DNA of 64,000 nt. Origin: Gordonibacter massiliensis (ex Traore et al. 2017) (GTDB lineage: Bacteria; Actinomycetota; Coriobacteriia; Coriobacteriales; Eggerthellaceae). The notes beneath the pieces are model-generated. The model ran no database searches. It saw only the letters and a list, made by a program, of their open reading frames with translations, and was not told where the DNA came from. The DNA lies in the NCBI GenBank assembly GCA_900170005.1, contig LT827128.1, forward strand, positions 2,724,168 through 2,788,167, given 5' to 3'. This document shows positions 28,272 to 42,515 of the stretch, one piece after another. The first letter of the stretch is position 1. The number at the start of each line of letters is the position of its first letter. A program made the translations under genes and the position numbers.

Positions 28272-30821
28272 TTACTCGCTGCGGCGAAGACGTGCGCGCG
28301 CTGCCGTGAGTACGCCGGCGGCGGCGAGTGCCAATCCCGCCAGGGCGATGCCCGCATCGCCGTCTCCCGACTTGGGGAGCTCCTTGACGGTGGGACCTAC
28401 GTTGCCGGAGGGCTGGGCACCGCTCGCATCGCCGTCGGCGATCTCCGCCTTCTGCTCGAACACGGCGAAGGGCGACAGCTCGTCCACAGACATGCTCGCG
28501 CGCTCGTCCCGTACGACAACCTTCGTCGCTTCGAGCGCGCCGTCGGCCTTTTGGTGCACCATCCAAACCGTCTCGCCCTCGTGATCGGCGTCGACCGACA
28601 ACGACACGGAAAGCGTACCGTCGAACGGGACGTCCTCGCCCGACGTCGCATCGACCACCGACACGTTCGCGCCGACGAGGAACGTTCCCACCTGGTCGGA
28701 TGCCGTCGCGAGCTTCGCAACCTGCTCGTCAGCAAGAGCCGAGAGCGCAATGGAAGCCTGCGTGTCCGCGAGAAACGCCCCCGAAACCCCGGCCTGCGTT
28801 CCGTCAAGCTCGGCCGTCAACGTGCGCTCCTCGTAGGAGGGCTCTTCTTCCGGCAAGTCCACCGTCACGCTCATGGTGTCGCCCGCAACGTCGTTCACCG
28901 TCAGGGAGATGCCGGAGTCCACGCGCTCGTCGGGCGTTTCGCAGCCGTCGTAGAGCGAAAGCGGCAGAAGGCCGCCCTCCCAGTTGAATTGCGTGCAGAA
29001 GACGTTGTTGAAGAAGGGGCGGGATATGAGCGGGTAGCCGTCGTTGTACTGCGTTCCCTCCGGGTAGACGGGCATGATGCCCGGCCGGTGATCCACCGTG
29101 TTGACGGTGTTCGCCATGGTGTTGTTTTCGATGCCTGTTTTGCGCTCGTCCACGACTCCCTGATCGATATGCCACACCACGATGCCGCCCGTTTCGTTGT
29201 AGTATTCCGGCCTTTCCTTGTGGCGCTCTGCGCGGTAATAGGCTGTCAGCCCCCTGTCGAAGCTCTCGAACTGGCGGTTCTCCACCAGATAGTACTCGTC
29301 GGGCGAGTTCGTCGGAATGCGCAGGCATTGGTATCCCTCGTCGCTCCAGAACGTGGACACGTCGTAGGTGCCGTCGGCGGTCACGTCCACGGGCGTGACG
29401 TAACCCAACTCCGCCAGACAGTACGGATCCAAACCCACCGGGGTGAACACCGACGTGCCGTTTTCCTCGTATCTGCCCCAGCTGCCGCCCGCCATCAAGC
29501 TGATCGCATTGACGTCGTACTTGATCCAGGGGAATTCTTCGATGGTCCCTCCGCTGGTGGAGGAGTAGTTGATGTCGTACAGATCGGGAAGCCCCAGGTA
29601 GTGACCCAGTTCGTGCGCCACCGTGCTGAAAGACATCGGCTGGGCGGGGAACTGTCCTTCGACTTTGAAGGTTTCGCCCATGGTGATATAGGAGTCGAAC
29701 TCGATCCCTTTGATCGTTTCGGGTTCGAAGTTGTCTTTGTCCATGCTGGACAGATCCCACTGAAAGCACCACTGAGCCGGCACGTTTTCGCCTGCCGAGG
29801 CTTCGTATCCTGCCACGATGAACAGCAAGCACGCCTCATCTCTGCTCAGTTTGCCGTCTCCGTTCACGTCGTAGGCGGCGAAGTCGATGTACTCGGACGC
29901 CTTCGTAAGGGCCTCCACGTACATCGCGCGAAGATCGGCGGCCTCGGGGCTTTTGAAGTCGGGGCTGCGCCAGTTGCCGTGATTTCGATCAAGGGTCACG
30001 TGGATGATGCCGTCTCCGGCTGCGTCGTACTGGTTGGTATTGGTCTTGCCGTCTGGTCCGACCACGTCATAAGCGCTCGTCTCCGTTGTTGCGGGCACCC
30101 AAGAGAACTTGCTGTTCGACATAGTGGCGTAGAAGTTGGTGATGCTGTTTCCGCTGCCGTAGAGCCGCTCGTGCCAATCGTACTCGTCGTTGTAGCGCTG
30201 TTCGGCTGCGGTCCACTGCGCCTTGTTGCCCTTCGAGTCAGTGTAATTGATAGTGGCGTCGGGTCCGTCGGGGCTTTCGAACCCGATGACGATGGTGATG
30301 AGCGGCAGCGAGGTCTTGGTCTGCACTGCCGAGTTCAAGCTGTAGGCGTTCGCGTTGGACGACCCGTGCGCGGCTTCGATGTCGTCGAGTGTCAGCACCT
30401 CGCTCGTCTCGTGCGTCTGGCCGGTGTAGGCGGACCCGTTCAGCGCGGCGTAGGCCGTCTTACCCGCGTCGTCCGCCAAGGCGGCGGGCGTCAGCGCGTC
30501 CTCCGGTGCGACGCCGTCGGCGCGCGGCCCGAACGCGAAACCGAAGTCCGCTTCCGTCACGTAATACCACGCCTGGTCGAGTGGGTTCTTCTGCACAAGG
30601 AAGCCGTCGGTCGTTCGGACGTAGTGGAAGTACTCGTCGCCGCGTTGGCCGGCTTGGAAGGTCGCGCCATCGGGCTGCGTGTAGCTTTGCTCCACCTCCA
30701 GTGCTGGCCCGGCGAAAGCCGCGGTGGGCGCAAGGCAAAGCGCGATCGCCACGGCAAGGAGGGGGAAGAGGGGGAACGTGCGCTTTTCGAAACGGGTTGT
30801 CTTGCGTGCTTCTTGTTGCAT
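28272..30821 (-). CDS. M6-family (immune inhibitor A-like) metalloprotease, cell-wall anchored
   Basis: 849 residues from the ATG at 30821 with AGGGAG upstream; the open frame extends further but without a good start. Signal peptide about 15-42 (FPLLAVAIALCLAPTAAFA). The catalytic zinc motif HELGHYLGLPDLYD has H403, E404 and H407. YDVNGDGKLSRDE (about 316-328) has the spacing of an EF-hand calcium loop within the protease region. A beta-rich C-terminal part leads to the sorting signal LPKSGDGDAG, a hydrophobic stretch and RARLRRSE. It is probably exported and sortase-linked to the wall, where it degrades proteins. It is transcribed divergently from the beta-helix gene. Confidence 0.87.
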   Translation of the reverse strand: MQQEARKTTRFEKRTFPLFPLLAVAIALCLAPTAAFAGPALEVEQSYTQPDGATFQAGQRGDEYFHYVRTTDGFLVQKNPLDQAWYYVTEADFGFAFGPRADGVAPEDALTPAALADDAGKTAYAALNGSAYTGQTHETSEVLTLDDIEAAHGSSNANAYSLNSAVQTKTSLPLITIVIGFESPDGPDATINYTDSKGNKAQWTAAEQRYNDEYDWHERLYGSGNSITNFYATMSNSKFSWVPATTETSAYDVVGPDGKTNTNQYDAAGDGIIHVTLDRNHGNWRSPDFKSPEAADLRAMYVEALTKASEYIDFAAYDVNGDGKLSRDEACLLFIVAGYEASAGENVPAQWCFQWDLSSMDKDNFEPETIKGIEFDSYITMGETFKVEGQFPAQPMSFSTVAHELGHYLGLPDLYDINYSSTSGGTIEEFPWIKYDVNAISLMAGGSWGRYEENGTSVFTPVGLDPYCLAELGYVTPVDVTADGTYDVSTFWSDEGYQCLRIPTNSPDEYYLVENRQFESFDRGLTAYYRAERHKERPEYYNETGGIVVWHIDQGVVDERKTGIENNTMANTVNTVDHRPGIMPVYPEGTQYNDGYPLISRPFFNNVFCTQFNWEGGLLPLSLYDGCETPDERVDSGISLTVNDVAGDTMSVTVDLPEEEPSYEERTLTAELDGTQAGVSGAFLADTQASIALSALADEQVAKLATASDQVGTFLVGANVSVVDATSGEDVPFDGTLSVSLSVDADHEGETVWMVHQKADGALEATKVVVRDERASMSVDELSPFAVFEQKAEIADGDASGAQPSGNVGPTVKELPKSGDGDAGIALAGLALAAAGVLTAARARLRRSE

Positions 30822-31168
30822 GGTGCTCCCTTTTCGATGGGTTTTACGGTGCGGCATCAGCCATTTCACAACAATTATCGAGCAAGGATACATCATGGCG
30901 CGGTTCGATTCGGGGAGCGCTCGCGAGGTGAGGCGTTCGCGCCGCCGTTTGCGTCGTTCATGCGGGGGGCGAAGGGTTGCTCGGGGGCAGGGTGCTCCTA
31001 GGGGCGCTACGTCGTTCATGTCGCGTAGGTTACAGTTTGGGACAAATTCGAAGACGTCGCAGAAACAATCCCTACTATTTCGCTGGAAGCATACGTATGC
31101 ATGGATGCGCATGGGCGCGGGTAGATCGTCGAGCGGTGCGCATCGAACAGGAGAATGAGAGGCTGCTT
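30822..31168. other. Divergent promoter region between two surface-protein genes
   Basis: 347 bases without a supported gene. It must contain the promoters of the M6 protease and the beta-helix protein. A perfect palindrome, GCATACGTATGC (31089-31100), lies 69 bases before the beta-helix start and is a possible shared operator. Confidence 0.5.
31089..31100. promoter_or_regulatory. Perfect 12-bp palindrome in the divergent promoter region
   Basis: GCATACGTATGC, self-complementary over its full length, between two surface-protein genes. Operator-like; no regulator identified. Confidence 0.4.
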
Positions 31169-33937
31169 ATGGGGCGTTTGGGCAGAAGACTGCGTGAGAA
31201 AACGGCAAAGGCGGGTTCGGTCGCGCTGGCCGTTGCGTTGACGATGTCGTTGGGCGGCACGGCGCTCGCCTTTGCCGACGAAACGGACGAGGACGCCTCG
31301 GTCGGCCTCCCGGCCGAGATCGACGGGCAAACCGCCGCAGACGACCCGACGGCAGCGGACGATCGGCCCGAGGCGGACGTTCCGGCCGAAACCGACGGTC
31401 AGGACTCTTCCCAGCCCGAGGCCCTTCTCGCCAGCGAGCAGGCGGGCACCCCGTTGGAGGCCGACGTGGGCACGCTGGCCCTCACCACGCTGTACGTGTC
31501 ATCCACCGGCGACGATACCGTAGGCACCGGCGAGGCTTCGGCTCCGTACGCGTCGCTTGCGAAGGCGGTCGCCGTGGCGTCGTCGGGGTCCACCATCGTC
31601 GTCATGGACGACATCGTCGCCACCGGGTGCGCCCGCATAACGGACAAGGACCTCGTCATAACGAGCGCGACGTCCACGCCGGTGACCATCACCCGCGGAG
31701 ATGGTTTCGCCGTCATACGCGACACCGCCCGAAGGTGGTACAACCCGGCGATGATCGAGCTGACGGGCGATACGAACGCCACGATTTCCAACATCATCTT
31801 GGACGACGCGGGGAAGTACCAAGGAACGCTGTTCACCGCCCAAGACACCGCGGGCGGCAGCTCGGGCGCCGAGAACTCCATGAACACCGAGCGCGTCCAA
31901 GACGCGATAGTGGCGCTGTACGCCGTCAACGCGGGCTCGTTGACGCTCGACAACGCGCAACTCAAGAACTACGGCGGCCTGTCCGCCATCCGCGCGACCA
32001 ACCCGAACGCGCGCGTGAACATGACCAACGGAAGCACGATAACCGTGGACTCTCCTTCGTACGGCACCGGCAACAGCAGGAAGGGCGGCGTGTGGCTCCA
32101 GGGAAACAGCGTGACCTTCGAGATGCAGAGCGGAACTTCGATAACCAACCTGTACAGCTACGCGATCTTCCCCGAGGGCTCGACGGTGAACATGAACGGA
32201 GAGCTCTCCCGCAACCACTCCACGGCCCTTGCGAGCAACAGCGGAAACGTCGTCATCGGGCCCGACGGCGTGGTCGCGAACAACTCCGGCGGCAACACCG
32301 GCGGCGGCGTGTACGCCAACACGGGCTCGACGCTGGTCGTCAAAGGCAAGATCGTCAACAACTCCGGCAGCGGACGCGGCGGCGGCCTGTACGTTCAAGC
32401 CAACGGCACGCCTTCCACGGCCACGCTCGAGGAGGGTGGGGAGATATCGGGCAACACGAGCTTGGCCCCCGGCGCCGGCGTGAACGTCGACCAGGCGTCG
32501 AACTTCGTCATGAACGGCGGAACCATCACCGGCAACAGGGCGCTGGGCAACACCGGCAGCGGCGTGTACCTCAGGCGCGGCGCGCAGTTCGTCATGAACG
32601 GCGGGAGCCTGCTCGGCAACGGCTCGAGCGCGTCGACGAAGGGCAAGGACATCGCCCTCCAATCCGAGTCCACCAGTTGGGGCCGCATGGGATCCGTCAC
32701 GTTGAACAGCGACGCCCCGACGACGGTGGGCCCCGACCAGGTGTACTACGAAGACGAGAAGAAGTGCGTCTACTACGCGGGCGGCAACGACAAGCTGACC
32801 GTGGGCGACTTGAACGCTGCGGGCAGGACGGCGATAAAGGCCGACGTTGCCGCCGCCGGTCTCACGTACCTCGAATCCATGGTGGTCAGGCCGGAGTACG
32901 AAACCACCGACCTGGAGATCACGAAGCCGTCTGCGGCCAACGCGACGGACCCGTTCTACGCGGCCGTCGTGGAGACGGACGCCTTGGGCGTTCCCGTGGG
33001 AACCTATTCCTACCATATGGTGGGCGTGGCGCCTTCGGGGAACCTTTCGGTTTCGATTCCCTCGTCGACGTCTGCGGCGGGGCATGCGGTCGCCATCGCC
33101 CAGGCTCCGGGCCCGGTTATCACCAAGCAGCCCGAGGACGCGAGCGTGCTCTACAACGAAACGGCCACCTTCGAAGTGGCGGCGGAAGCGCCGTCCGGCA
33201 CGGTGAGCTATCAGTGGCAGAAGTCGACCGACGGCGGTGTGACGTGGATCGACGTTGTCGGCGCGAACGCGGCGACCTACACGACGCCGGCGCTGATCGA
33301 CACGGACAACGGGAACCTCTACCGTTGCGCGGTTGCCTGCAGCGCCGTGAACATAACGCTGCATAGCGACGCCGCCTCGCTTGCCGTTTCGCTTCCCATA
33401 TCCGTTTCGCCCAGCAGCACGTTCGAGCAGGGGAAGGCTCCCGACACCACGGTGACCGTGGGCTCCTCTTTGTCGGTGAAGGCCAGCCTCAACTTGGACG
33501 AGGTCATCTTGGATGGAGCCGTGTTGACGGAGGGGACGGATTACACGTCGGCGGACGGATCCATCATCATCAACCTGCCGGCAAGCTACCTGAACACGCT
33601 GGCGGTGGGCACGTATACGCTGGAGGTCACGACCAAGAACGCTCCGTACGAGGGGCTGTCGGCCCGCACGGACCTCACGGTGATTCCGGCGATCACGCCC
33701 CCCGGCAACGACATCACCGGACCCGGCGAGGATGTTCCCCAGCCCGGTGGCGGCACCGGCGATCCAACGGTCCCGCCGTCTGCGGGCGGCGCCCCTAGCG
33801 GCAAGACCGCTCCGCTGATGCCCGTAACGGGCGACGGCGCGGCCGTGCTTCCCTTGGCCGTTGCGGCGTTCGTCTCCGGCCTGGTCGTTTGCGCCGGTGC
33901 GCTCTTGGCCAGAAGGGCAAGGCGCTCCGCCAAGTAG
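31169..33937 (+). CDS. Cell-wall-anchored beta-helix surface protein with an Ig-like domain
   Basis: 922 residues from the ATG at 31169 (GAGAGG upstream). Signal peptide about 1-36 (SVALAVALTMSLGGTALAFA), then an acidic linker. Residues about 110-560 form a right-handed parallel beta-helix, recognisable by recurrent Gly/Asn turns (NNSGGNTGGGVYANTGSTLV, VMNGGTITGNRALGNTGSGV). An Ig-like or I-set-like domain (about 650-760, PVITKQPEDASVLYNETATF ... VSYQWQKSTDGG) and another beta domain follow. The C-terminus has a Pro/Gly linker and LMPVTGDGAA, a hydrophobic helix and RRARRSAK, a variant sorting signal. Probably an adhesin; polysaccharide lyase activity is possible but catalytic residues were not seen. 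Confidence 0.83.
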   Translation: MGRLGRRLREKTAKAGSVALAVALTMSLGGTALAFADETDEDASVGLPAEIDGQTAADDPTAADDRPEADVPAETDGQDSSQPEALLASEQAGTPLEADVGTLALTTLYVSSTGDDTVGTGEASAPYASLAKAVAVASSGSTIVVMDDIVATGCARITDKDLVITSATSTPVTITRGDGFAVIRDTARRWYNPAMIELTGDTNATISNIILDDAGKYQGTLFTAQDTAGGSSGAENSMNTERVQDAIVALYAVNAGSLTLDNAQLKNYGGLSAIRATNPNARVNMTNGSTITVDSPSYGTGNSRKGGVWLQGNSVTFEMQSGTSITNLYSYAIFPEGSTVNMNGELSRNHSTALASNSGNVVIGPDGVVANNSGGNTGGGVYANTGSTLVVKGKIVNNSGSGRGGGLYVQANGTPSTATLEEGGEISGNTSLAPGAGVNVDQASNFVMNGGTITGNRALGNTGSGVYLRRGAQFVMNGGSLLGNGSSASTKGKDIALQSESTSWGRMGSVTLNSDAPTTVGPDQVYYEDEKKCVYYAGGNDKLTVGDLNAAGRTAIKADVAAAGLTYLESMVVRPEYETTDLEITKPSAANATDPFYAAVVETDALGVPVGTYSYHMVGVAPSGNLSVSIPSSTSAAGHAVAIAQAPGPVITKQPEDASVLYNETATFEVAAEAPSGTVSYQWQKSTDGGVTWIDVVGANAATYTTPALIDTDNGNLYRCAVACSAVNITLHSDAASLAVSLPISVSPSSTFEQGKAPDTTVTVGSSLSVKASLNLDEVILDGAVLTEGTDYTSADGSIIINLPASYLNTLAVGTYTLEVTTKNAPYEGLSARTDLTVIPAITPPGNDITGPGEDVPQPGGGTGDPTVPPSAGGAPSGKTAPLMPVTGDGAAVLPLAVAAFVSGLVVCAGALLARRARRSAK

Positions 33938-34291: not shown

Positions 34292-34486
34292 ATGTGCTTC
34301 AGATCGTCATCGGCAGGTTTCGAGAAAAAGTGCCCGAAATGCGCAACGCCTTACGAGGGCGATGCTACGGTGTGCCCGAAGTGCGGTGCCGCGCTTCCCG
34401 CCGCCAGGGCCGCGGGTGCGCCGGGCGCGCCCGCGGCGCCGGGAGCGCCGAAGGCCCCCGCGGCTCCGGGAACGTCGGGCCGGTAG
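34292..34486 (+). CDS. Small zinc-ribbon protein heading the molybdoenzyme locus
   Basis: 64 residues from the ATG at 34292, with GGAGAAGGAGGAG upstream. A single zinc ribbon has C14, C17, C28 and C31 (KKCPKCATPYEGDATVCPKC). The rest is an Ala/Pro/Gly tail. It precedes the first MFS gene by 94 bases on the same strand. A second small Cys-rich protein (40119) ends the locus. Its role is unknown; it may be a metal-binding accessory or regulator. Confidence 0.62.
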   Translation: MCFRSSSAGFEKKCPKCATPYEGDATVCPKCGAALPAARAAGAPGAPAAPGAPKAPAAPGTSGR

Positions 34487-34580
34487 CCTCGCGAAGGGCG
34501 TGGCGTGCGCGGGTTCGGGCCCGCGTGGTAGGGGAGCGTCGAAGAGGAAGGCCGCACCGCGGCCGGAAAGAAGGAAGGGT

Positions 34581-35840
34581 ATGAGCGTAGAGGCGAAGAA
34601 AGCCCAGATCAACCAAACGGGTCGCGCATGGGTGGTGGCCACCATCGCCATCATCGCGTCCATTTTGATCTCGGCTAACAGCAACAAGCTGCCCGCCACC
34701 ATGTCGCTGGTCATTCCGGCGTTGGGTATCGATACGGGCACGGCCGGCAACATCATGTCGTTGAACGGCTACGTGGGTTTCGTGCTGGCGTTCGTGGCCG
34801 CCAGCATCATCATGAAGTTCGGAACGAAGAAATCGACGCTCATGGTGCTGGCATGCGCGGTGGTCGGTGCCGTTATCAGCGCGTTCGCCACCGACTACAT
34901 CGTCTTGGTTGTCGGCCGCCTTATCGAGGGCGTGGGTTACGCCTGCATCGGAACGGTCATCCCGGTGCTGTTCTCGGAGTGGTTCCCCCCGTCCAAGCGC
35001 GGCGTTCCCATGGGCATCTTTTCCGTATGGGTGCCGCTGGGCTCCATGTTCATCATGGGCACGTCCGGTTTCTTCTTCAACGAGGCCGATCCCGCCAGCT
35101 ACCATGCCGTGTTCTGGTTCGTCGCCGCGCTGCTGGCCGTTATCACCGTGGTGTGGGCGGTGGCCGTGCGCAATCCCCAGGTGTCCTACCTCGAGCAGGA
35201 ATCCGGCCCGAACGCCGAGAAGCCCAAGGTTTCCGAAGGCTTCAAGAGCCTGTCCTGCTGGGTTGCCATGGTGGCGTTCGCGGCGTTCGCTTTGGGCACC
35301 GCCTGCGTCATGAACTTCGAGACGCTTTACATGGTGCAGACCATGGGCATGGACCAGGCGTCTGCGAACGGCATGCTGAACGTGGCGAACATCGCCGTGG
35401 TCGTCGGCGGCATCGGCATCGGCTTCGTCATGAACGCCGTCAAGAGCAACAAAGGGCGCCTGGGCATCTTGGTGGTTTGCTCGGCCGTGCTCGGCGCCAG
35501 CTTCGCCATGGCCTACACGGTGAGCGACGCGATGCTGGTTCCCTGGCTTATCGTGTTCGGCCTTTCCAACGGCGTGGTCCCCGCCATCTTCTTCACCATG
35601 GTGGCCGAAATCGCCCCGCGCCCGGCGTTGGCCAGCGTGTCGTCCACGCTCATGAGCTGCGGACAGTGCGTCGGCGGCATCCTGTTCGGCATTGTGGGCG
35701 CCGTGGTGACGGCTGCCGGTTGGGCGGCGTGCACCGGGCTGCTCGCGGGCGTGGGACTCGTGCTGTTCCTGGGGTCGTTGGCCTTGTTTCTGGTCCTGCG
35801 CGCCCGGGACAAGAAGCGAGATGATGCCGCTGTTCAATAG
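34581..35840 (+). CDS. MFS transporter (molybdoenzyme locus, first copy)
   Basis: 419 residues from the ATG at 34581, preceded by AAGGAAGGG; the open frame begins 333 bases earlier, but that part overlaps the zinc-ribbon gene. About 12 TMs: the first half carries GRLIEGVGYACIGTVIPVLF and WFPPSKRG, resembling the MFS motif between helices 4 and 6. It belongs to the MFS type frequent beside Eggerthellaceae catechol-converting molybdoenzymes. It probably moves the enzyme's aromatic or organic substrate or product. The enzyme gene follows 56 bases later. Confidence 0.85.
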   Translation: MSVEAKKAQINQTGRAWVVATIAIIASILISANSNKLPATMSLVIPALGIDTGTAGNIMSLNGYVGFVLAFVAASIIMKFGTKKSTLMVLACAVVGAVISAFATDYIVLVVGRLIEGVGYACIGTVIPVLFSEWFPPSKRGVPMGIFSVWVPLGSMFIMGTSGFFFNEADPASYHAVFWFVAALLAVITVVWAVAVRNPQVSYLEQESGPNAEKPKVSEGFKSLSCWVAMVAFAAFALGTACVMNFETLYMVQTMGMDQASANGMLNVANIAVVVGGIGIGFVMNAVKSNKGRLGILVVCSAVLGASFAMAYTVSDAMLVPWLIVFGLSNGVVPAIFFTMVAEIAPRPALASVSSTLMSCGQCVGGILFGIVGAVVTAAGWAACTGLLAGVGLVLFLGSLALFLVLRARDKKRDDAAVQ

Positions 35841-35896
35841 GGGATTTCAATTCTTCGCAAGACGAGTGCAGCGAATCAAGAGGTAAGGAGAAGGTT

Positions 35897-38377
35897 ATGG
35901 AATTCAAAAACGATCTAGGCAAGCCGTGGAAGTTCCAGGACGGCGACTTCACGGTCGTGCGCTCCTCGGTGTGGTCGCCCCCGGGGTGCCATCCGGTGGG
36001 GTGCGGCATCAAGATCTACGTGGACAAGGACGGCCGCCTGGACCATATCGAGGGCGACGAGAACGACCCGATCACGCACGGCCGCCTGTGCCCGCGGTGC
36101 CTGGCGCTGAAGGACTACGTGTACAACCCGTCGCGCGTGGTCTACCCCATGCGGCGCGCGAAGGAGGAGCGCGGCAACGCCGACGCTTGGGAGCGCTGCA
36201 CGTGGGACGAGGCGCTCGACCTCATCATGGACAACTGGAAGCGTCTGACCGAGCAGCACGGCCGCGAGACCATGGCCATCTTCGTGGGCACCGGGCGCGA
36301 CGGCATGCTGTCGCAGGACTTCCAGCTGAGCATCTTCCGCACGCCGAACCTGGCGTACACGCAGTCGGGCTACGCCTGTTACCAGCCGCGCATGACGGCC
36401 TCGAACATGGTGCTGGGCGCGCTGTACCCCGAGCTCGACTACGCCGGCGGTCTTCCCGGAGGCTACGACGACCCGCAGTACCAGGTGCCCGAGCTCATGA
36501 TCCTGTGGGGTAAGATGCCCCTGGCGTCGAACCCGGACGGGTTCTTCGGCCATTCCGTCATCGACCTCATGAAGCGCGGCGCGAAGCTCGTGACCATCGA
36601 CCCGCGCGTGAACTGGCTGGCCACGCGCTCGGTGGTGCAGCTGCGCCTGCGCAACGGCACCGACGCGGCGCTGGCCATGGCGCTGTGCAACATCATCATC
36701 AGCGAGGACCTGTACGACCACGACTTCGTGGAGCGCTGGTGCTACGGCTTCGACGAGTTCGCCGAGCGCGTGGCCTACATGACGCCGGAAAACGCCGCCA
36801 AGATATGCGAGATCCCCGTCGAGGACATCTACCGCGTGGCGCGCATGTACGCCGCCGCCAAGCCGGCGTCCATCGCCTGGGGCCTGGCGTTCGACCAGAA
36901 CACGAACGGCATGCAGGCGGGGCACTGCGTGCTGAGCATGATCTGCCTGACGGGCAACCTCGATGTGCCGGGCGGCAACGTGGTGGCCGACCTGTCCATG
37001 CCGGAGGACCTGACGAGCGAAGCGGCTGCGGGCGGTGCCGAGGACTTCAACGACACTCGCTCGTTCATCACCGAGGGCTGGTACCAGATGACCGAGGAAG
37101 AGCGCGGCAAGGCGCTCGGCATGGACAAGTACCCGCTGTACTGCAACCAGATCACGGGCGCCCAGGCCGATTGCGTGCTCGATGCGCTCGAAACGGAAGA
37201 GCCCTATCCCGTTCGCATGGCATGGGTTGCCAACAGCAACCTCATCGCCCCCACGAACTCCGCCGAGCCCACCCGCTGGCATGCCGCCATGGTGAAGTCC
37301 ATCGAGTTCGCCTTCGGCACCGACTGCTTCATCACGCCCACCATCCAGGCGGTGTGCGATGTGTTCCTGCCCATTACCACCGTCGCCGAGCACGACGGCG
37401 TGAACCGCACGCACTACGGCGCGGCCTCCATCACCACCGGCTGCGGCAACAAGGCCGTCACCGTGGGCGAGGCAAAGTGCGACCTGGAGATATACTGCCT
37501 GCTGGCCGAGCGCATGGCCGCGATGTTCCCCGACGACCCCAAGGCCTGCTTCGCGCACGAGAAGTACCCCGACTACCACGACTACCTGAACAAGAACCGC
37601 CTGGAGGGCCGCCACGACTTCGAGGACGTGAAGCAGCTCGTCAAATTCAAGCGCGCCGTCTACTATCGCAAGTACGAGACGGGCAAGCTGCGCCCCGACG
37701 GCCAGCCCGGCTTCCTCACGCCCACGGGGCGCGTGGAGCTGTGGTCGTCGCAGTACAACGACAACGGCATGGACCCGCTGCCGTACTACTACGAGCCGGA
37801 CTTGAGTCCGCGCATCCCCGAAAAGACGGCCGAGGACTTGAACCTCAAGAAGAACCCCCGCATCTCCGACGAGCTGGACGCGAAGTGGCACGAGCGCGAC
37901 CTGTCCCACGAGGAGATCATCGAGAAGTACCCGTTCATCCTGTCCACGGGGCACCGCCGCTACTCGTCGTTCCATAGCGAGCACCGCCAGATCGCCGTGC
38001 TGCGCGAGATCGACCCGAACCCCATGCTGGAGATCAACCCCGCCGACGCCGAGAGGCTGGGCCTGGCCGACGGCCAGTGGTGCGAGATCGAGAACATGTT
38101 CGGCAAGGCCAAGTACAAGGCCCGCCTCATGCCCACCATCAAGCAGGGCCACGTGGAGGCCGACCACGGGTGGTGGTTCCCCGAGCAGGACGGCAGCGAG
38201 CCCAGCCTGTTCGGCGTGTGGCAGTCGAACTGCAACGACCTGGTGCCCATGCACCACAACAATGCGCTCGGATTCGGCGCCCCCTACAAGAGCGCCTGCT
38301 GCAACGTCGTTCCCCTGAAGGAGAGCTACGACGTGGACATGAACGCGTTCGCCGAGAAGTTTGGAAAGCTGGTGTAA
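35897..38377 (+). CDS. Molybdopterin oxidoreductase of the acetylene-hydratase/catechol-dehydroxylase-like group
   Basis: 826 residues with no Tat signal, so probably cytoplasmic. The N-terminal Fe-S segment has C31, C36, C65 and C68 (PPGCHPVGCG ... GRLCPRCLALK); the usual first ligand is a Pro. Central bis-MGD regions include LVTIDPRVNWLATRS, LRNGTDAALAMALCNIII and ASIAWGLAFDQNTNG, close to acetylene hydratase from memory. In the Mo-ligand region, SGYACYQPRM puts C161 where acetylene hydratase has its Cys ligand. The C-terminal domain starts about 690 (FILSTGHRRYSSFHSEHRQI). Related gut enzymes remove hydroxyls from catechols or hydrate/transhydroxylate; the substrate here is unproven. Overlapping organisation with the FeS subunit (2-base gap) supports a two-subunit enzyme. 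Confidence 0.85.
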   Translation: MEFKNDLGKPWKFQDGDFTVVRSSVWSPPGCHPVGCGIKIYVDKDGRLDHIEGDENDPITHGRLCPRCLALKDYVYNPSRVVYPMRRAKEERGNADAWERCTWDEALDLIMDNWKRLTEQHGRETMAIFVGTGRDGMLSQDFQLSIFRTPNLAYTQSGYACYQPRMTASNMVLGALYPELDYAGGLPGGYDDPQYQVPELMILWGKMPLASNPDGFFGHSVIDLMKRGAKLVTIDPRVNWLATRSVVQLRLRNGTDAALAMALCNIIISEDLYDHDFVERWCYGFDEFAERVAYMTPENAAKICEIPVEDIYRVARMYAAAKPASIAWGLAFDQNTNGMQAGHCVLSMICLTGNLDVPGGNVVADLSMPEDLTSEAAAGGAEDFNDTRSFITEGWYQMTEEERGKALGMDKYPLYCNQITGAQADCVLDALETEEPYPVRMAWVANSNLIAPTNSAEPTRWHAAMVKSIEFAFGTDCFITPTIQAVCDVFLPITTVAEHDGVNRTHYGAASITTGCGNKAVTVGEAKCDLEIYCLLAERMAAMFPDDPKACFAHEKYPDYHDYLNKNRLEGRHDFEDVKQLVKFKRAVYYRKYETGKLRPDGQPGFLTPTGRVELWSSQYNDNGMDPLPYYYEPDLSPRIPEKTAEDLNLKKNPRISDELDAKWHERDLSHEEIIEKYPFILSTGHRRYSSFHSEHRQIAVLREIDPNPMLEINPADAERLGLADGQWCEIENMFGKAKYKARLMPTIKQGHVEADHGWWFPEQDGSEPSLFGVWQSNCNDLVPMHHNNALGFGAPYKSACCNVVPLKESYDVDMNAFAEKFGKLV

Positions 38378-38379
38378 CC

Positions 38380-38733
38380 ATGCCTAAATACGCGCTTTTG
38401 ATCGACTACGAGTACTGCACGGGCTGCCAGTCCTGCGAGGTGGCCTGCAAGGAGGAGCATAACTTCCCCGTGGGCAAGTGGGGCATCCGCGTGCTGGACG
38501 AGGGTCCCTGGCAGAAGGACGACGCCAAGGACGAGGGCAGCTGCTTCAACTGGAACAAGATACCCGTGCCCACCGACCTGTGCGACCTGTGCGCGAGCCG
38601 CGTGGAAGACGGCCGCGAGCCCGTGTGCGTGCACAACTGCCTGGGCGACTGCATGCGCTTCGGCACCGTCGAGGAGATGGCGGCGGAGCTGGCTCGGAAA
38701 CCGAAGCAGGTTCTGTGGGCTCCCACCGACTAA
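38380..38733 (+). CDS. 4Fe-4S electron-transfer subunit of the molybdoenzyme
   Basis: 117 residues from the ATG 3 bases after the catalytic subunit stop. The first cluster motif is C13-x2-C16-x2-C19-x3-C23 (EYCTGCQSCEVACKEEH). A second Cys set is C68-x2-C71-x11-C83-x3-C87-x3-C91. It is shorter than DmsB-type subunits (about 200) with four clusters. It should carry electrons to or from the molybdenum active site. The pairing argues for a redox reaction (such as reductive dehydroxylation) rather than a hydratase, which needs no partner. Confidence 0.87.
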   Translation: MPKYALLIDYEYCTGCQSCEVACKEEHNFPVGKWGIRVLDEGPWQKDDAKDEGSCFNWNKIPVPTDLCDLCASRVEDGREPVCVHNCLGDCMRFGTVEEMAAELARKPKQVLWAPTD

Positions 38734-38766
38734 GCGGGCATCTTCGTATATCCTAAGCGGACGTTC

Positions 38767-38798
38767 GCATCCCCGGTCTTGCACGAGGCCGGGGATGC
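38767..38798. terminator. Hairpin between the FeS subunit and the second MFS gene
   Basis: GCATCCCCGG/CCGGGGATGC, a 10-bp perfect stem without a T run. It may partly uncouple the second transporter from the enzyme genes. Confidence 0.5.
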
Positions 38799-38848
38799 GG
38801 GGGCGCCCGGCACGCCTTTCGGGGCGCGTGCCAACGTAAGGAGGGGCT

Positions 38849-40111
38849 ATGGAGGCACAGGGGAAGTCGGCGGCGGTGCCGACTGTCTTGAACGTTGTGG
38901 GCATTCTGGCGCTGTTCTGCACCATGAGCGAGTTCGCCATTCTAACGCCTTCGATAGCGGCGTTCTCCCATCATTTCGCGGACACGAGCATCACCACCAT
39001 CATGTTCGCGAACAGCATCACCGGCATCGTGTCCGTGCCGGTGAGCATCTTGTCGGGCGCGGTGCTGCACCGCATAGGGTTCAAACCGGCTGCCGTCATT
39101 GGCATCTTGGTCATGTCCGTGGGCGGCGCGTTCCCGTTCCTCATGCCGGATATCACGGACTACGCGCCCGTCATCGTTTCGCGCGTTATCGTGGGTTTGG
39201 GCCTGGGCGTCATGTTTCCGGTGGGCAACGCCACCATCATCGCGTTCTTCGACGGCGAGCAACGGTCGCGGTTGCTGGGGCTTGGTATAACCATACAGTT
39301 CGTGTTCAACCTGCTGTACACGACGGTGGCCGGCTACCTGACCGAGATCGGCTGGAACTACTCGTTCCTCGCGTACCTCATCGGTTTCGGGCCGCTGGTC
39401 GCGGCGTTGGCGTGGATGCCGGAGGCAAAGCCGCTCGTCGCCGCGCAGCGCCAGCGCAGCCGGCAGGCGAGCAAGGGCCCCAAGGAGAAGGTACCCCGGG
39501 CCATTTGGGGCTACGCGCTGTTCGCGCTGGCCGCATGGACGTGCGTGGTCACGGTGCAGGTGGTCACGTCGACCATCCTGGACGTGCGCGGGCTGGCCGG
39601 TCCGGGCGAAGCGGCGCTGGTCATCAACTGCTGCGGCGTCGGCACCATCCTGTGCGGGCTGCTGTTCCCGTATCTGGTGAGGCTTTTCAAAACCAGGTTG
39701 TTCGGCGTCTCGGCGTTGCTCGTGGTCGTGGGCATCGTTCCCTGCTTTCTTGCCGACAACCCGTTCGTGTACGCGCTCGGCGTATTCGTGCTCGGGTTTG
39801 GAGGTTCGGCCTTCTTCACGGCTGCCCAGAACGCCACCGGCAACATCGCGCCGAAAAGTCGCGTGCCGTTCGTGAGCGGCGTTATGACCTCGATGATGAA
39901 TCTGGGGCCGTTCATCGGTCCGTATTTGTTCGCCGCTTCGGTCGCGGCCGTTCCGTCGCTTGGCAACGACGCGGTGTTCCCCGTGCTCATCGCGCTTGGC
40001 GCGATCGTGGCAGCGGTGGGGCTCGTTCATCCCATGAAGGCGCTGAACGTATCCTGCGCACCAGAAAAAAGCGAAGCTTGCGCGGCGGACGCCCGATCGG
40101 AATCGCGGTGA
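38849..40111 (+). CDS. MFS transporter (molybdoenzyme locus, second copy)
   Basis: 420 residues, about 12 TMs. ACGTAAGGAGGGG before the ATG is a strong site. It carries VSRVIVGLGLGVMFPVGNAT (helix 4 region), a long central basic loop (QRQRSRQASKGPKEK) and FGGSAFFTAAQNATGN in helix 10. It is distinct from the 34581 transporter. Two transporters flanking one enzyme suggest separate import and export, or substrate and product exchange. Confidence 0.85.
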   Translation: MEAQGKSAAVPTVLNVVGILALFCTMSEFAILTPSIAAFSHHFADTSITTIMFANSITGIVSVPVSILSGAVLHRIGFKPAAVIGILVMSVGGAFPFLMPDITDYAPVIVSRVIVGLGLGVMFPVGNATIIAFFDGEQRSRLLGLGITIQFVFNLLYTTVAGYLTEIGWNYSFLAYLIGFGPLVAALAWMPEAKPLVAAQRQRSRQASKGPKEKVPRAIWGYALFALAAWTCVVTVQVVTSTILDVRGLAGPGEAALVINCCGVGTILCGLLFPYLVRLFKTRLFGVSALLVVVGIVPCFLADNPFVYALGVFVLGFGGSAFFTAAQNATGNIAPKSRVPFVSGVMTSMMNLGPFIGPYLFAASVAAVPSLGNDAVFPVLIALGAIVAAVGLVHPMKALNVSCAPEKSEACAADARSESR

Positions 40112-40118
40112 TCGCGCC

Positions 40119-40319
40119 ATGACCCGCTGCGCGTTCGGTTGCATCCACTGCGGCAAATGCGGTCCCGCGTCCCGCGAGGGCATGGTGAAGCCGAACCCGT
40201 CCGGCTACTGCGCGTTCTGCAAGACGCAGAACGCCGCCGACGCGACGACGTGCGCTTTATGCGGCAAGCCGCTGCCTCGTGCGCCCGGCGTCCGAAAGGA
40301 TGCGGCCCCTTTGCGATAA
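40119..40319 (+). CDS. Small Cys-rich (double zinc-ribbon) protein
   Basis: 66 residues. Cys pairs: C4/C8/C11/C14 at the N-terminus and C31/C34 with C45/C48 (YCAFCKTQNAADATTCALCG). It begins 8 bases after the second MFS stop, so it is probably cotranscribed with it. Like the small protein at 34292, it is a short Cys-rich protein of the molybdoenzyme locus. Function unknown; metal storage, Fe-S assembly and regulation are all open. The C-terminus is basic and Pro-rich. Confidence 0.6.
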   Translation: MTRCAFGCIHCGKCGPASREGMVKPNPSGYCAFCKTQNAADATTCALCGKPLPRAPGVRKDAAPLR

Positions 40320-40323
40320 CGAG

Positions 40324-40917
40324 CTAGGGTTTCGGCGAAGCGGGCTTGAGCGGCGTGTCGAGCAGTTTGTACAGCTCGCGCGGAATGGCGTTGGCCAACC
40401 AGGTGCACAGCTCTTCGAGCGTGGCGTCGTAAGCGCCGTAATGCCATTTGGGAAGAAGATGCACCTCCAGCTCGACGGTGGCGTCCACTTGGAACTTCAG
40501 ACGCTCGGTGAGCTGGCGATGGTGGTAGTCGGTCAAAGTCTCTACCAGCGTTTTCCTGCGCAAGCGCGGCGCGTAATTGTCGATGGCGTTGTAGTCGTCC
40601 GACTTGGCCACGTTGCTGTAGAACTCGCTTCGCTCGGCGATGATGGTTTCCGAGATGTAGTATCCTTCGCGCCACGGAAGCGTCCGTCCGATCTCGTTCG
40701 CGCCTTTCGAGTAGGCGAAGTTCAAGTGCCACTGCGGAATGGCGAACTTGTCCGTGAAGTATCGGTAGAACGTCGCGCGGGATATATGGGCTTCGCTGCA
40801 TATCTGGGTGACGGTTATCTTGTCGAACGGCACGTTGCGCATGAGCGTGTCCAGGGCATCGAATATGCCCATCTTGGTTTTGAAGTCTTCCATCAACGAA
40901 GAAGCCGGTTCGTCCAT
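40324..40917 (-). CDS. TetR-family transcriptional regulator
   Basis: 197 residues. The HTH (about 28-55) reads FDKITVTQICSEAHISRATF followed by YRYFTDKF, typical of TetR. An in-frame Met at residue 9 is an alternative start. It converges on the molybdoenzyme locus (stop-to-stop gap of 4 bases) and is the only regulator beside it. A perfect palindrome 78 bases upstream (40995-41022) is its likely operator. The inducer may be the enzyme's substrate. Confidence 0.83.
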   Translation of the reverse strand: MDEPASSLMEDFKTKMGIFDALDTLMRNVPFDKITVTQICSEAHISRATFYRYFTDKFAIPQWHLNFAYSKGANEIGRTLPWREGYYISETIIAERSEFYSNVAKSDDYNAIDNYAPRLRRKTLVETLTDYHHRQLTERLKFQVDATVELEVHLLPKWHYGAYDATLEELCTWLANAIPRELYKLLDTPLKPASPKP

Positions 40918-40994
40918 ATCAGCCCTCCCCCCTTAACCGATATGACCATGCGGCCATTGTAGCATTGATCTTCCGAAGCGCTTCCGGGCGAAAC

Positions 40995-41022
40995 GTGAGA
41001 CAGATAGGATGATCTGTCTCAC
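40995..41022. promoter_or_regulatory. Perfect inverted repeat, probable TetR operator
   Basis: GTGAGACAGAT (40995-41005) and ATCTGTCTCAC (41012-41022) around a 6-base centre (aggatg). Size and spacing are typical of TetR operators. It lies upstream of the TetR gene and before the divergent zinc-ribbon gene. Confidence 0.65.
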
Positions 41023-41064
41023 GCGCGTGCGTTGCCGGTCTGTTCGGCTCATGGGCTTGGGACG

Positions 41065-41283
41065 ATGCGAAGGGCGGCGGGGCGGCGCGCGGCGTGCTCG
41101 CATTGCGGTAGCACGGAATTCGACGAAAGCCAGGCGCAGATCAACACGGCGGGGCTTACGTTCTTCGACCTCGACTGGGCTAACCGCAGCGCCACCGTGC
41201 CCACCTGTAGGCAGTGCGGGCATATCGAGCGGCTCCTTTCACGGATCACCGGCTTCCCACCTGAGCGCAGACGATATGAGTAG
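41065..41283 (+). CDS. Small zinc-ribbon nucleic-acid-binding-like protein
   Basis: 72 residues from an ATG at 41065; a TTG 33 bases earlier is possible. C11/C14 (CSHCGSTEFDE) and C48/C51 (CRQCGHIERL) with a central LTFFDLDW segment match the pattern of the YpzJ-type predicted zinc-ribbon family. It is oriented away from TetR across the shared operator. Ribosome binding site is weak. The IS110 left end starts about 7 bases after the stop, so the 3' context may have been altered by insertion. Confidence 0.55.
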   Translation: MRRAAGRRAACSHCGSTEFDESQAQINTAGLTFFDLDWANRSATVPTCRQCGHIERLLSRITGFPPERRRYE

Positions 41284-41403: not shown

Positions 41404-42515
41404 ATGTCCTATGTTACTTCAATTGGCCTTGACGTACACGCTCGATCCATCACGGCCGTAGCTTTCTCCATAGCGACCGGGGAGGTCGTCTCCAAAAGGT
41501 TTGGCTACTCCCCGGAAGAAGTGGCCCCGTGGATACTTTCTTTCGAGAAGCCCAAAGCCGTATACGAATCGGGGTCACGGGGTTTCACCTCGTGCGGGCT
41601 CTTCGGGGCGTGGGCGTTGATTGCGTGGTCGGAGCCGTCTCCAAGATGCACAGACCGGCCTCTGACAAACGGAGGAAGAACGACCGCAACGACGCCGAGT
41701 TTTTAGCCCGACAGCTCGCGGCGAGAAACATCGTGGAGGTGTTTGTCCCCGACAAGGAGACCGAGGCCGCAAGAAACCTGTCTCGCGTCCTCGAAGACAT
41801 ACGCCAAGACCTCACGCGCGCCAAGCACCGCCTCACCCATCCGCTTATAACGCACGGGCACGTCTGGAACGAGGTTGACCCCGAGGGCAGGCGGCGCGGC
41901 GCGTGGACCCGTGCCCACTGGGAATGGATGCGCTCGATAGAGCTTTCCGAGCCCGCCGCGCAAGAATCTCTCGACTACTACGTGTCCGAGGTGCGCCATA
42001 TCGAGGCGCAGAAAAAGGCGATAGAGAAAAGGATCGCGCTGCATGCGCAAAAAGACCGATGGCGAGGGCGCGTGGAGGCGTTTCGATGCATGAAGGGCAT
42101 AGAGACCGCGACGGCGTTTTCGCTCGTGGCCGAAGCGGGCGTGTTCTCCCGATTCGACTCCGCGCGCGCTTTCTCGTCGTGGCTCGGGCTCGTGCCGAGC
42201 GAGCACTCCTCGGGGGAGCGTATCGCGCGTGGCTCCATCACCAAGGCCGGCAACTCCCATCTGAGAAAGCTTCTCGTGGAGGCTTCCTGGCACTACACGC
42301 GCGCAACCAAGGAGCGCAAACGGGGGCTTTACGACGATGCCGTGCCGATGCCCGTGGCCAACCATGCGGCTGCCGGGGTGAAAAGACTCGTAGAGCGGCG
42401 GGAGCACTTCGTCGAGATGCGCAAGCGGCCCGTGGTGGCCAACGTCGCGACGGCGCGCGAGCTCGCCTGCTGGGTGTGGGCTCTCGGGTGCATGTGCGAA
42501 GGGGCGCTCGACTGA
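41404..42515 (+). pseudogene. IS110 transposase, frameshifted
   Basis: It begins MSYVTSIGLDVHARSITAVA (first RuvC-like Asp in GLDVH). The frame is lost near 41570-41585, where VYESGS runs into the wrong phase while the next frame reads VTGFHLVRALRGVGVDCVVG; one G seems missing from a G run. The second part includes KNDRNDAEFLARQLAARN (DEDD residues) and, in the C-terminal domain, SSGERIARGSITKAGNSHLR with the catalytic Ser region. If GGGG is authentic, the protein is inactive unless ribosomes shift minus one. Confidence 0.8.

Follow-up and report, generated by a model that had tools for sequence, protein, structure and literature searches.

Gene content of the molybdoenzyme locus

The DNA analysed here (hereafter referred to as the window) is a stretch of 64,000 nucleotides from Gordonibacter massiliensis, the genome of which (G000; 3.95 Mb) carries about 82 PF00384 molybdoenzyme genes. 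The first-pass annotation had placed at 34292-41022 of the window a soluble molybdoenzyme and its iron-sulfur partner, lying between two MFS transporters and two small Cys-rich proteins, with one TetR regulator. All seven genes, encoding family B, MFS1, the molybdoenzyme, the 4Fe-4S partner, MFS2, family A and TetR, were found in the sequence at this position. The start, 34292, is the ATG of the family B gene, and the end, 41022, lies one base beyond a palindrome at 40996-41021. The features are as follows.

34292..34486, + strand: small Cys-rich protein of family B (13-homologue alignment; MCFR..., zinc ribbon, APGAPKAPG tail)
34581..35840, + strand: MFS transporter 1 (MFS1), 419 aa (PF07690, E 8e-34; orthologues 73-84% identical at the equal position)
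35897..38377, + strand: catalytic subunit of a bis-MGD molybdoenzyme, 826 aa (PF00384, PF01568 and PF04879, all above cut-off)
35987..36004, + strand: codons C31 to C36 of the molybdoenzyme, C-X4-C, the first two cysteines of the changed set (alignment)
36089..36100, + strand: codons C65 to C68 (CPRC) of the molybdoenzyme, the canonical last Cys and a clade-specific extra Cys
36377..36379, + strand: codon C161 of the molybdoenzyme, predicted Mo ligand (alignment with known ligands; Cys in 80/80)
38380..38733, + strand: 117-aa 4Fe-4S partner; its motifs suggest about two [4Fe-4S] clusters (Fer4-type matches; 10 Cys)
38849..40111, + strand: MFS transporter 2 (MFS2), 420 aa (PF07690, E 6e-45; orthologues 70-79% identical at the equal position)
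40119..40319, + strand: small Cys-rich protein of family A (C-X3-C-X2-C-X2-C and a CxxC...CxxC ribbon; found in orthologous loci)
40324..40917, - strand: regulator of the TetR family, its gene convergent to the operon, ATG at 40917 or 40893 (PF00440, E 3e-7)
40996..41021, no strand: 26-bp perfect palindrome TGAGACAGAT-N6-ATCTGTCTCA upstream of tetR, candidate operator
41529..42515, + strand: IS110-family transposase, a neighbour outside the locus proper (NF033542, 181.6 bits, cut-off 140)

The molybdoenzyme is soluble, as had been claimed: its 826-residue product begins with MEFKNDLGKPWKF and has neither a Tat signal nor an RR motif, and the gene content of the locus includes no membrane-anchor gene in the operon. 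The 117-residue partner is 74-86% identical in the orthologous loci of other genomes. An ORF at 41032-41283 was a candidate for one of the Cys-rich pair and was rejected; it has a borderline zinc-ribbon match only, lies outside the conserved set, and had no homologue in the other loci compared at that stage. Upstream of the locus, at 28272-33937, the window carries large, secreted-looking genes on opposite strands (metalloprotease-like and surface-protein-like).

The regulator described for loci of this kind is of the 12-TM LuxR type. This feature, common but not defining, is absent from the window locus, where a TetR-family gene is found. The 26-bp palindrome occurs as a single copy in the genome. 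An operator common to tetR and the operon promoter was considered and rejected, as the perfect palindrome lies upstream of tetR alone and none lies near the operon start. Since the palindrome is not repeated there, control of the operon by TetR draws no support from a common site.

The molybdoenzyme groups with Gordonibacter-type catechol dehydroxylases

In a tree of 97 sequences of the bis-MGD family, the molybdoenzyme was placed within a clade of 80 sequences (support 0.914), where it belongs to an orthologous group of its own comprising nine sequences (support 1.0). The same clade contains the Eadh homologues G000_734963 and G000_717569, which were recognised by synteny with the published ellagic-acid cluster (amidohydrolase, MFS and two molybdoenzymes; PMC12771579), not by accession. 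Dadh, El Hcdh, Cadh, Dodh and Cldh were compared by description; among the published enzymes, only those of the eam cluster were recognised, via this synteny. The Eadh enzymes have been shown biochemically to be catechol dehydroxylases (PMC12771579), and the tree thus bears out the kinship with catechol dehydroxylases of the Gordonibacter type. The eam (ellagic-acid) cluster itself can be recognised in all five genomes of the genus (G000 717569-738000, covered by L030, L084 and L070, and L080-L083).

A relationship with acetylene hydratase had also been proposed in the first-pass annotation. Acetylene hydratase is the nearest solved relative both by sequence (2e7z, E 1e-61) and by fold; an AlphaFold2 model of the molybdoenzyme (mean pLDDT 88.6) gave acetylene hydratase as its top structural match, with a Z score of 36.2 over 694 residues, and polysulfide reductase as the second, with a Z score of 30.6. 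In the 97-sequence tree, however, acetylene hydratase, represented by a partial sequence taken from the alignment with 2e7z, lies outside the 80-sequence clade in a neighbouring group, paired with G000_2868294 (L037 6295-8448; G000 2868294). Grouping with the DMSO/nitrate reductases, the outcome that had been named as evidence against the proposal, was not seen. DmsA is far from the molybdoenzyme in the tree, and the ligand position is Cys, whereas the DmsA type has Ser. The placement in the dehydroxylase clade, with DmsA distant, therefore argues against kinship with ordinary DMSO/nitrate reductases. These results, taken together, indicate that the locus is a complete operon for a soluble Mo enzyme of the catechol-dehydroxylating gut type, and that this enzyme is an orphan member of the type.

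Orthologues and the second copy

Orthologues 75-88% identical to the molybdoenzyme were found elsewhere in the Eggerthellaceae, outside this genus, and also in a single genome belonging to a different family of the same order; the sources were Enterorhabdus sp. P55, Adlercreutzia faecimuris and MAGs. In the four sister species of the genus there was no match of at least 72%, the best being about 60% identical over part of the length. As 72% identity is the boundary of shared function in published work (PMC11585353), the window enzyme represents a separate orthologous group, which has probably been exchanged between gut Eggerthellaceae. The gene order MFS1-molybdoenzyme-FeS-MFS2 is found again, at 70-88% identity, on independent contigs from other genera, indicating that the arrangement is not a chance one. 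Family A is present wherever an orthologous contig extends far enough, and MFS1, the molybdoenzyme, the FeS partner, MFS2 and family A usually occur together; the A. faecimuris locus is without MFS2, and L086 retains only the molybdoenzyme, the FeS partner and family A. In L087, a more distant relative (64%), the four core genes are present and family A is not detectable. A TetR gene is found at the complete orthologous loci, L086 excepted, in two alternative positions.

The genome carries a second copy of the molybdoenzyme gene at G000 2143613-2146090 (minus strand), 96% identical in protein. About 1000 mid-gene bases are identical to those of the window copy; the substitutions are clustered in codons 711-741, where the conserved W728 and G736 are changed and codon 741 is TAG. 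The in-frame TAG and the two altered residues argue against this copy being a functional paralogue. No donor of the clustered substitutions was found among the paralogues compared, and the mosaic pattern resembles the outcome of gene conversion together with decay, or of an error in the assembly. The second-copy locus (L019 9254-12090; G000 2143254-2146090, minus strand) also encodes a family A protein, a relative of MFS2, another enzyme of the clade, and an enzyme resembling AthL, of the pyrogallol hydroxytransferase type (L019 4992-7598). Several enzymes of the genome (L065, L067 and others) have the same Cys-free N-terminus as the AthL-like one, and three of them are near family B genes.

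The predicted Mo ligand and an altered set of putative Fe-S cysteines

The proposal that C161 is the Mo ligand held up on alignment: the residue aligns with Cys173 of PsrA (polysulfide reductase) and with the FdhF cysteine, and it is Cys in all 80 clade members. The N-terminal cysteines differ from the usual ones. None of the 80 members has the canonical first Cys of the CX2-3CX3C...C motif, which is present in the outgroups that cover the region; instead, nearly all members have C31-X3/4-C36 and C65-x-R-C68, the outgroups being without Cys at the position of C68. All four cysteines occur in 76 of the 80 members, none of them in two, and Asp stands at position 31 in the remaining two. Where relatives have Lys/Arg after the last cluster Cys, 77 of the 80 members have Arg; in formate dehydrogenase, this Lys/Arg links the cluster and the pterin. 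A review describes the Fe-S motif as absent from the catalytic subunits of Gordonibacter (PMC11574389). Our alignment suggests that the Fe-S ligand set of the clade is changed, by loss of the first Cys and gain of C68, and not absent.

This reading is supported by joint loss of the four positions and of the partner's cluster cysteines. In 18 loci (G000_174830 and 17 further ones), positions 31, 36, 65 and 68 read S, Y, N and N, and the partners encoded in the same 18 loci have only 1-5 Cys left, as against 9-10 elsewhere. In this Fe-S-free subfamily (L033 6831-9541, corresponding to G000 174830-177540, and L088-L100, L102, L103, L105 and L106), the other catalytic subunits, with one exception, are 84-98% identical to G000_174830. 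C161 is retained in the subfamily while the cluster cysteines are gone, which suggests that its members are non-redox molybdoenzymes. Two members count against the changed ligand set. G000_295109 has lost all four cysteines and its partner still has 9 Cys, and L104 has only C36 and C65 of the four, with D31, and intact partner clusters; the N-terminal site is thus not needed in every member.

We also considered the alternative that the four cysteines hold mononuclear Zn or Fe in two CX2-4C knuckles, not a [4Fe-4S] cluster. The spacing C-X4-C ... C-X2-C is like that of a knuckle pair and the canonical CX2CX3C is gone, but a mononuclear site seems doubtful to us, because the Arg has been kept in 77/80 members at the place where Lys/Arg follows the last cluster Cys in relatives, and because, in the Fe-S-free subfamily, the 18 loci with changes at the four positions are the very ones in which the partner has lost its cluster cysteines. 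Should C31, C36, C65 and C68 indeed bind a cluster, the list of cofactors published for this class needs correction.

Two families of small Cys-rich proteins accompany these enzymes

The window locus carries both family A and family B. Family A proteins have about 55-85 residues and eight conserved Cys, 7 of them invariant and the eighth nearly so in an alignment of 32 sequences; family B proteins have about 65-90 residues, with MCFRP, a zinc ribbon and the APGAPKAPG tail in the alignment with 13 homologues. Neither has a specific family in Pfam or NCBIfam, where only generic ribbon matches were obtained. The AlphaFold2 model of family A, with a pLDDT of 73, was not considered good enough to search for similar folds, and the PDB profile matches of this family are confined to the C-terminal ribbon.

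Each family has 18 sites in G000, and 17 of the 18 family A sites and all 18 family B sites lie within 5 kb of a molybdoenzyme gene. Such regions make up about 22% of the genome, and none of 5000 rotations was equally extreme. As the A and B models were seeded from loci picked for molybdoenzymes, it is the non-seed sites that matter, and all 12 of these are likewise no more than 5 kb from such a gene. Within G000, family A is near 17 of 34 clade members versus 4 of 48 other molybdoenzymes (p 2.7e-5); family B is less specific (14/34 versus 8/48, p 0.014). Among 119 Eggerthellaceae genomes, with kinship ignored, family A occurs in 35 of the 47 genomes with this enzyme type versus 3 of the 72 without it (Fisher 1.7e-16), and family B in 45 of 47 versus 4 of 72 (Fisher 1.5e-25). 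Outside the Eggerthellaceae, partial ribbon matches only were found among 199 genomes of the class; L042, a relative in another family, carries family A. Families A and B are thus Eggerthellaceae-centred, and they go with these enzymes both in where their genes lie and in which genomes have them. The sequence distances of family A and of the neighbouring enzymes are correlated (Mantel r 0.44, 28 pairs), as linkage alone could yield.

SlyD/FKBP-like isomerase genes often lie between the FeS gene and family A (L022 8829, L026 14082, L042 2662, L043 9581 and others), and one is beside family A in the orthologue L012 (14188). A trigger-factor-like gene follows family A at L022 457-1767, and a TorD-like gene is found at L043 5225-5932. 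Between convergent molybdoenzyme units, at L027 7829-8126, lie two genes of family A, one on each strand, with 3' ends overlapping by about 130 bases. The linkage of A and B, together with the folding-helper neighbours, suggests a role in maturation. The main texts of two key papers on these enzymes mention neither zinc nor an isomerase, and a literature search gave no paper in which zinc ribbons are connected with them. No family A or B gene is adjacent to the eam dehydroxylases, so that A and B are not universally needed in cis.

A contrary explanation is that A and B are not accessory, being unrelated zinc-ribbon proteins that hitch-hike in molybdoenzyme-rich regions. Both are small and ribbon-like, the eam cluster does without them, and the share of the genome within 5 kb of a molybdoenzyme gene is considerable. 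We nevertheless regard hitch-hiking as rather unlikely in view of the near-complete confinement of both families to these regions, which extends to the non-seed sites, the co-occurrence over the 119 genomes, and the constant gene order in orthologous loci. Our tentative proposal, on which we would not insist, is that the Gordonibacter-type dehydroxylases combine an Fe-S site rewired by loss of the first Cys and gain of C68 with dependence on a dedicated, unreported accessory set (A, B and often SlyD- or trigger-factor-like helpers), which would take the place of the TorD-type maturation genes found with the Eggerthella enzymes. If A and B are maturation or electron-delivery factors, this could help explain the poor expression of catechol dehydroxylases in standard hosts.

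Proposed working of the locus

We consider it likely that the locus specifies a reductive dehydroxylase with two subunits, located in the cytoplasm and belonging to the clade of Gordonibacter-type catechol dehydroxylases, and that it works as outlined here on a substrate that is probably not among the published ones. An inducer, probably the substrate, would release the TetR repressor, and one or both MFS proteins may import a catechol-bearing aromatic compound or export the product. Electrons would pass from the 117-residue ferredoxin-like partner through the putative cluster at C31/C36/C65/C68 to the bis-MGD centre, where Mo (or W), its ligation by C161 being supported by alignment, would take part in removal of one catechol hydroxyl. 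Family A, and family B where present, would probably be accessory, in enzyme maturation or in electron delivery. Membership of the clade is no proof of catechol reduction, since the clade has catalytically divergent members, including the Fe-S-free subfamily.

A reductive dehydroxylase of the same build could instead use a substrate other than a catechol, such as an alpha-hydroxyketone, as happens in corticoid 21-dehydroxylation. A Mo-dependent corticoid dehydroxylase has been reported from Eggerthella and Gordonibacter (review PMC11574389), and the orthologous group is without a match of at least 72% in the sister species; we hold this to be improbable, as the characterised Gordonibacter-type enzymes use catechols as substrates (PMC7028382, PMC11887054, PMC12771579) and the catechol was required wherever this was tested (PMC12771579). 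A non-redox hydratase or transhydroxylase, like acetylene hydratase in chemistry and fold, is very improbable: acetylene hydratase is the closest solved relative and Fe-S-free clade members exist, but it groups elsewhere in the tree, the window enzyme still has the complete set of four clade cysteines, its partner contains 10 Cys, and the Fe-S-free subfamily illustrates the appearance of a member that has lost the chain.

On the best reading, the enzyme is a new orphan member of an ordinary class, with features at the level of the family that are worth testing. Each enzyme of this kind gives the gut one particular activity towards a drug or a compound derived from diet or host. Genetic tools exist for Gordonibacter urolithinfaciens, in which the role of the Cys-rich families and the cluster claims are directly testable.

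Comparison with known systems

Acetylene hydratase of Pelobacter acetylenicus (2e7z), the closest solved structure, is also a bis-MGD enzyme with a Cys ligand; the window enzyme differs from it in having a redox partner and the altered Fe-S Cys set. Pyrogallol hydroxytransferase (AthL, 4v4c) is a bis-MGD enzyme acting on hydroxyarenes, with an N-terminal domain different from that of the window enzyme, which does not match PF21423 (AhtL-like N-terminal domain) and, at E values up to 1e-10, does not match 4v4c, whereas the enzyme near the second copy matches both.

The layout had been said to match what is known of dehydroxylase loci, which is true of one of the two published types. The Eggerthella-type enzymes (Dadh, El Hcdh and Cadh) carry a Tat signal, contain a multi-cluster subunit and a membrane anchor, and come with accessory proteins of the TorD type; this membrane-bound architecture is absent from the window locus, which has none of these features, and the window enzyme is shorter, although the type of reaction is likely to be common to both. 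The published Gordonibacter-type layout, in contrast, consists of a soluble catalytic subunit, a small 4Fe-4S partner and MFS (PMC7028382, PMC11887054, PMC12771579), and in these three respects Dodh, Cldh, Gp Hcdh and Eadh1/2 (PMC7028382, PMC11585353, PMC12771579) are like the window enzyme. The latter is unlike them in forming a separate orthologous group, in having TetR in place of the 12-TM LuxR regulator, and in occurring in two copies in the genome. With the Eadh homologues, it shares the clade, as tested in the tree, and an identical set of four cysteines.
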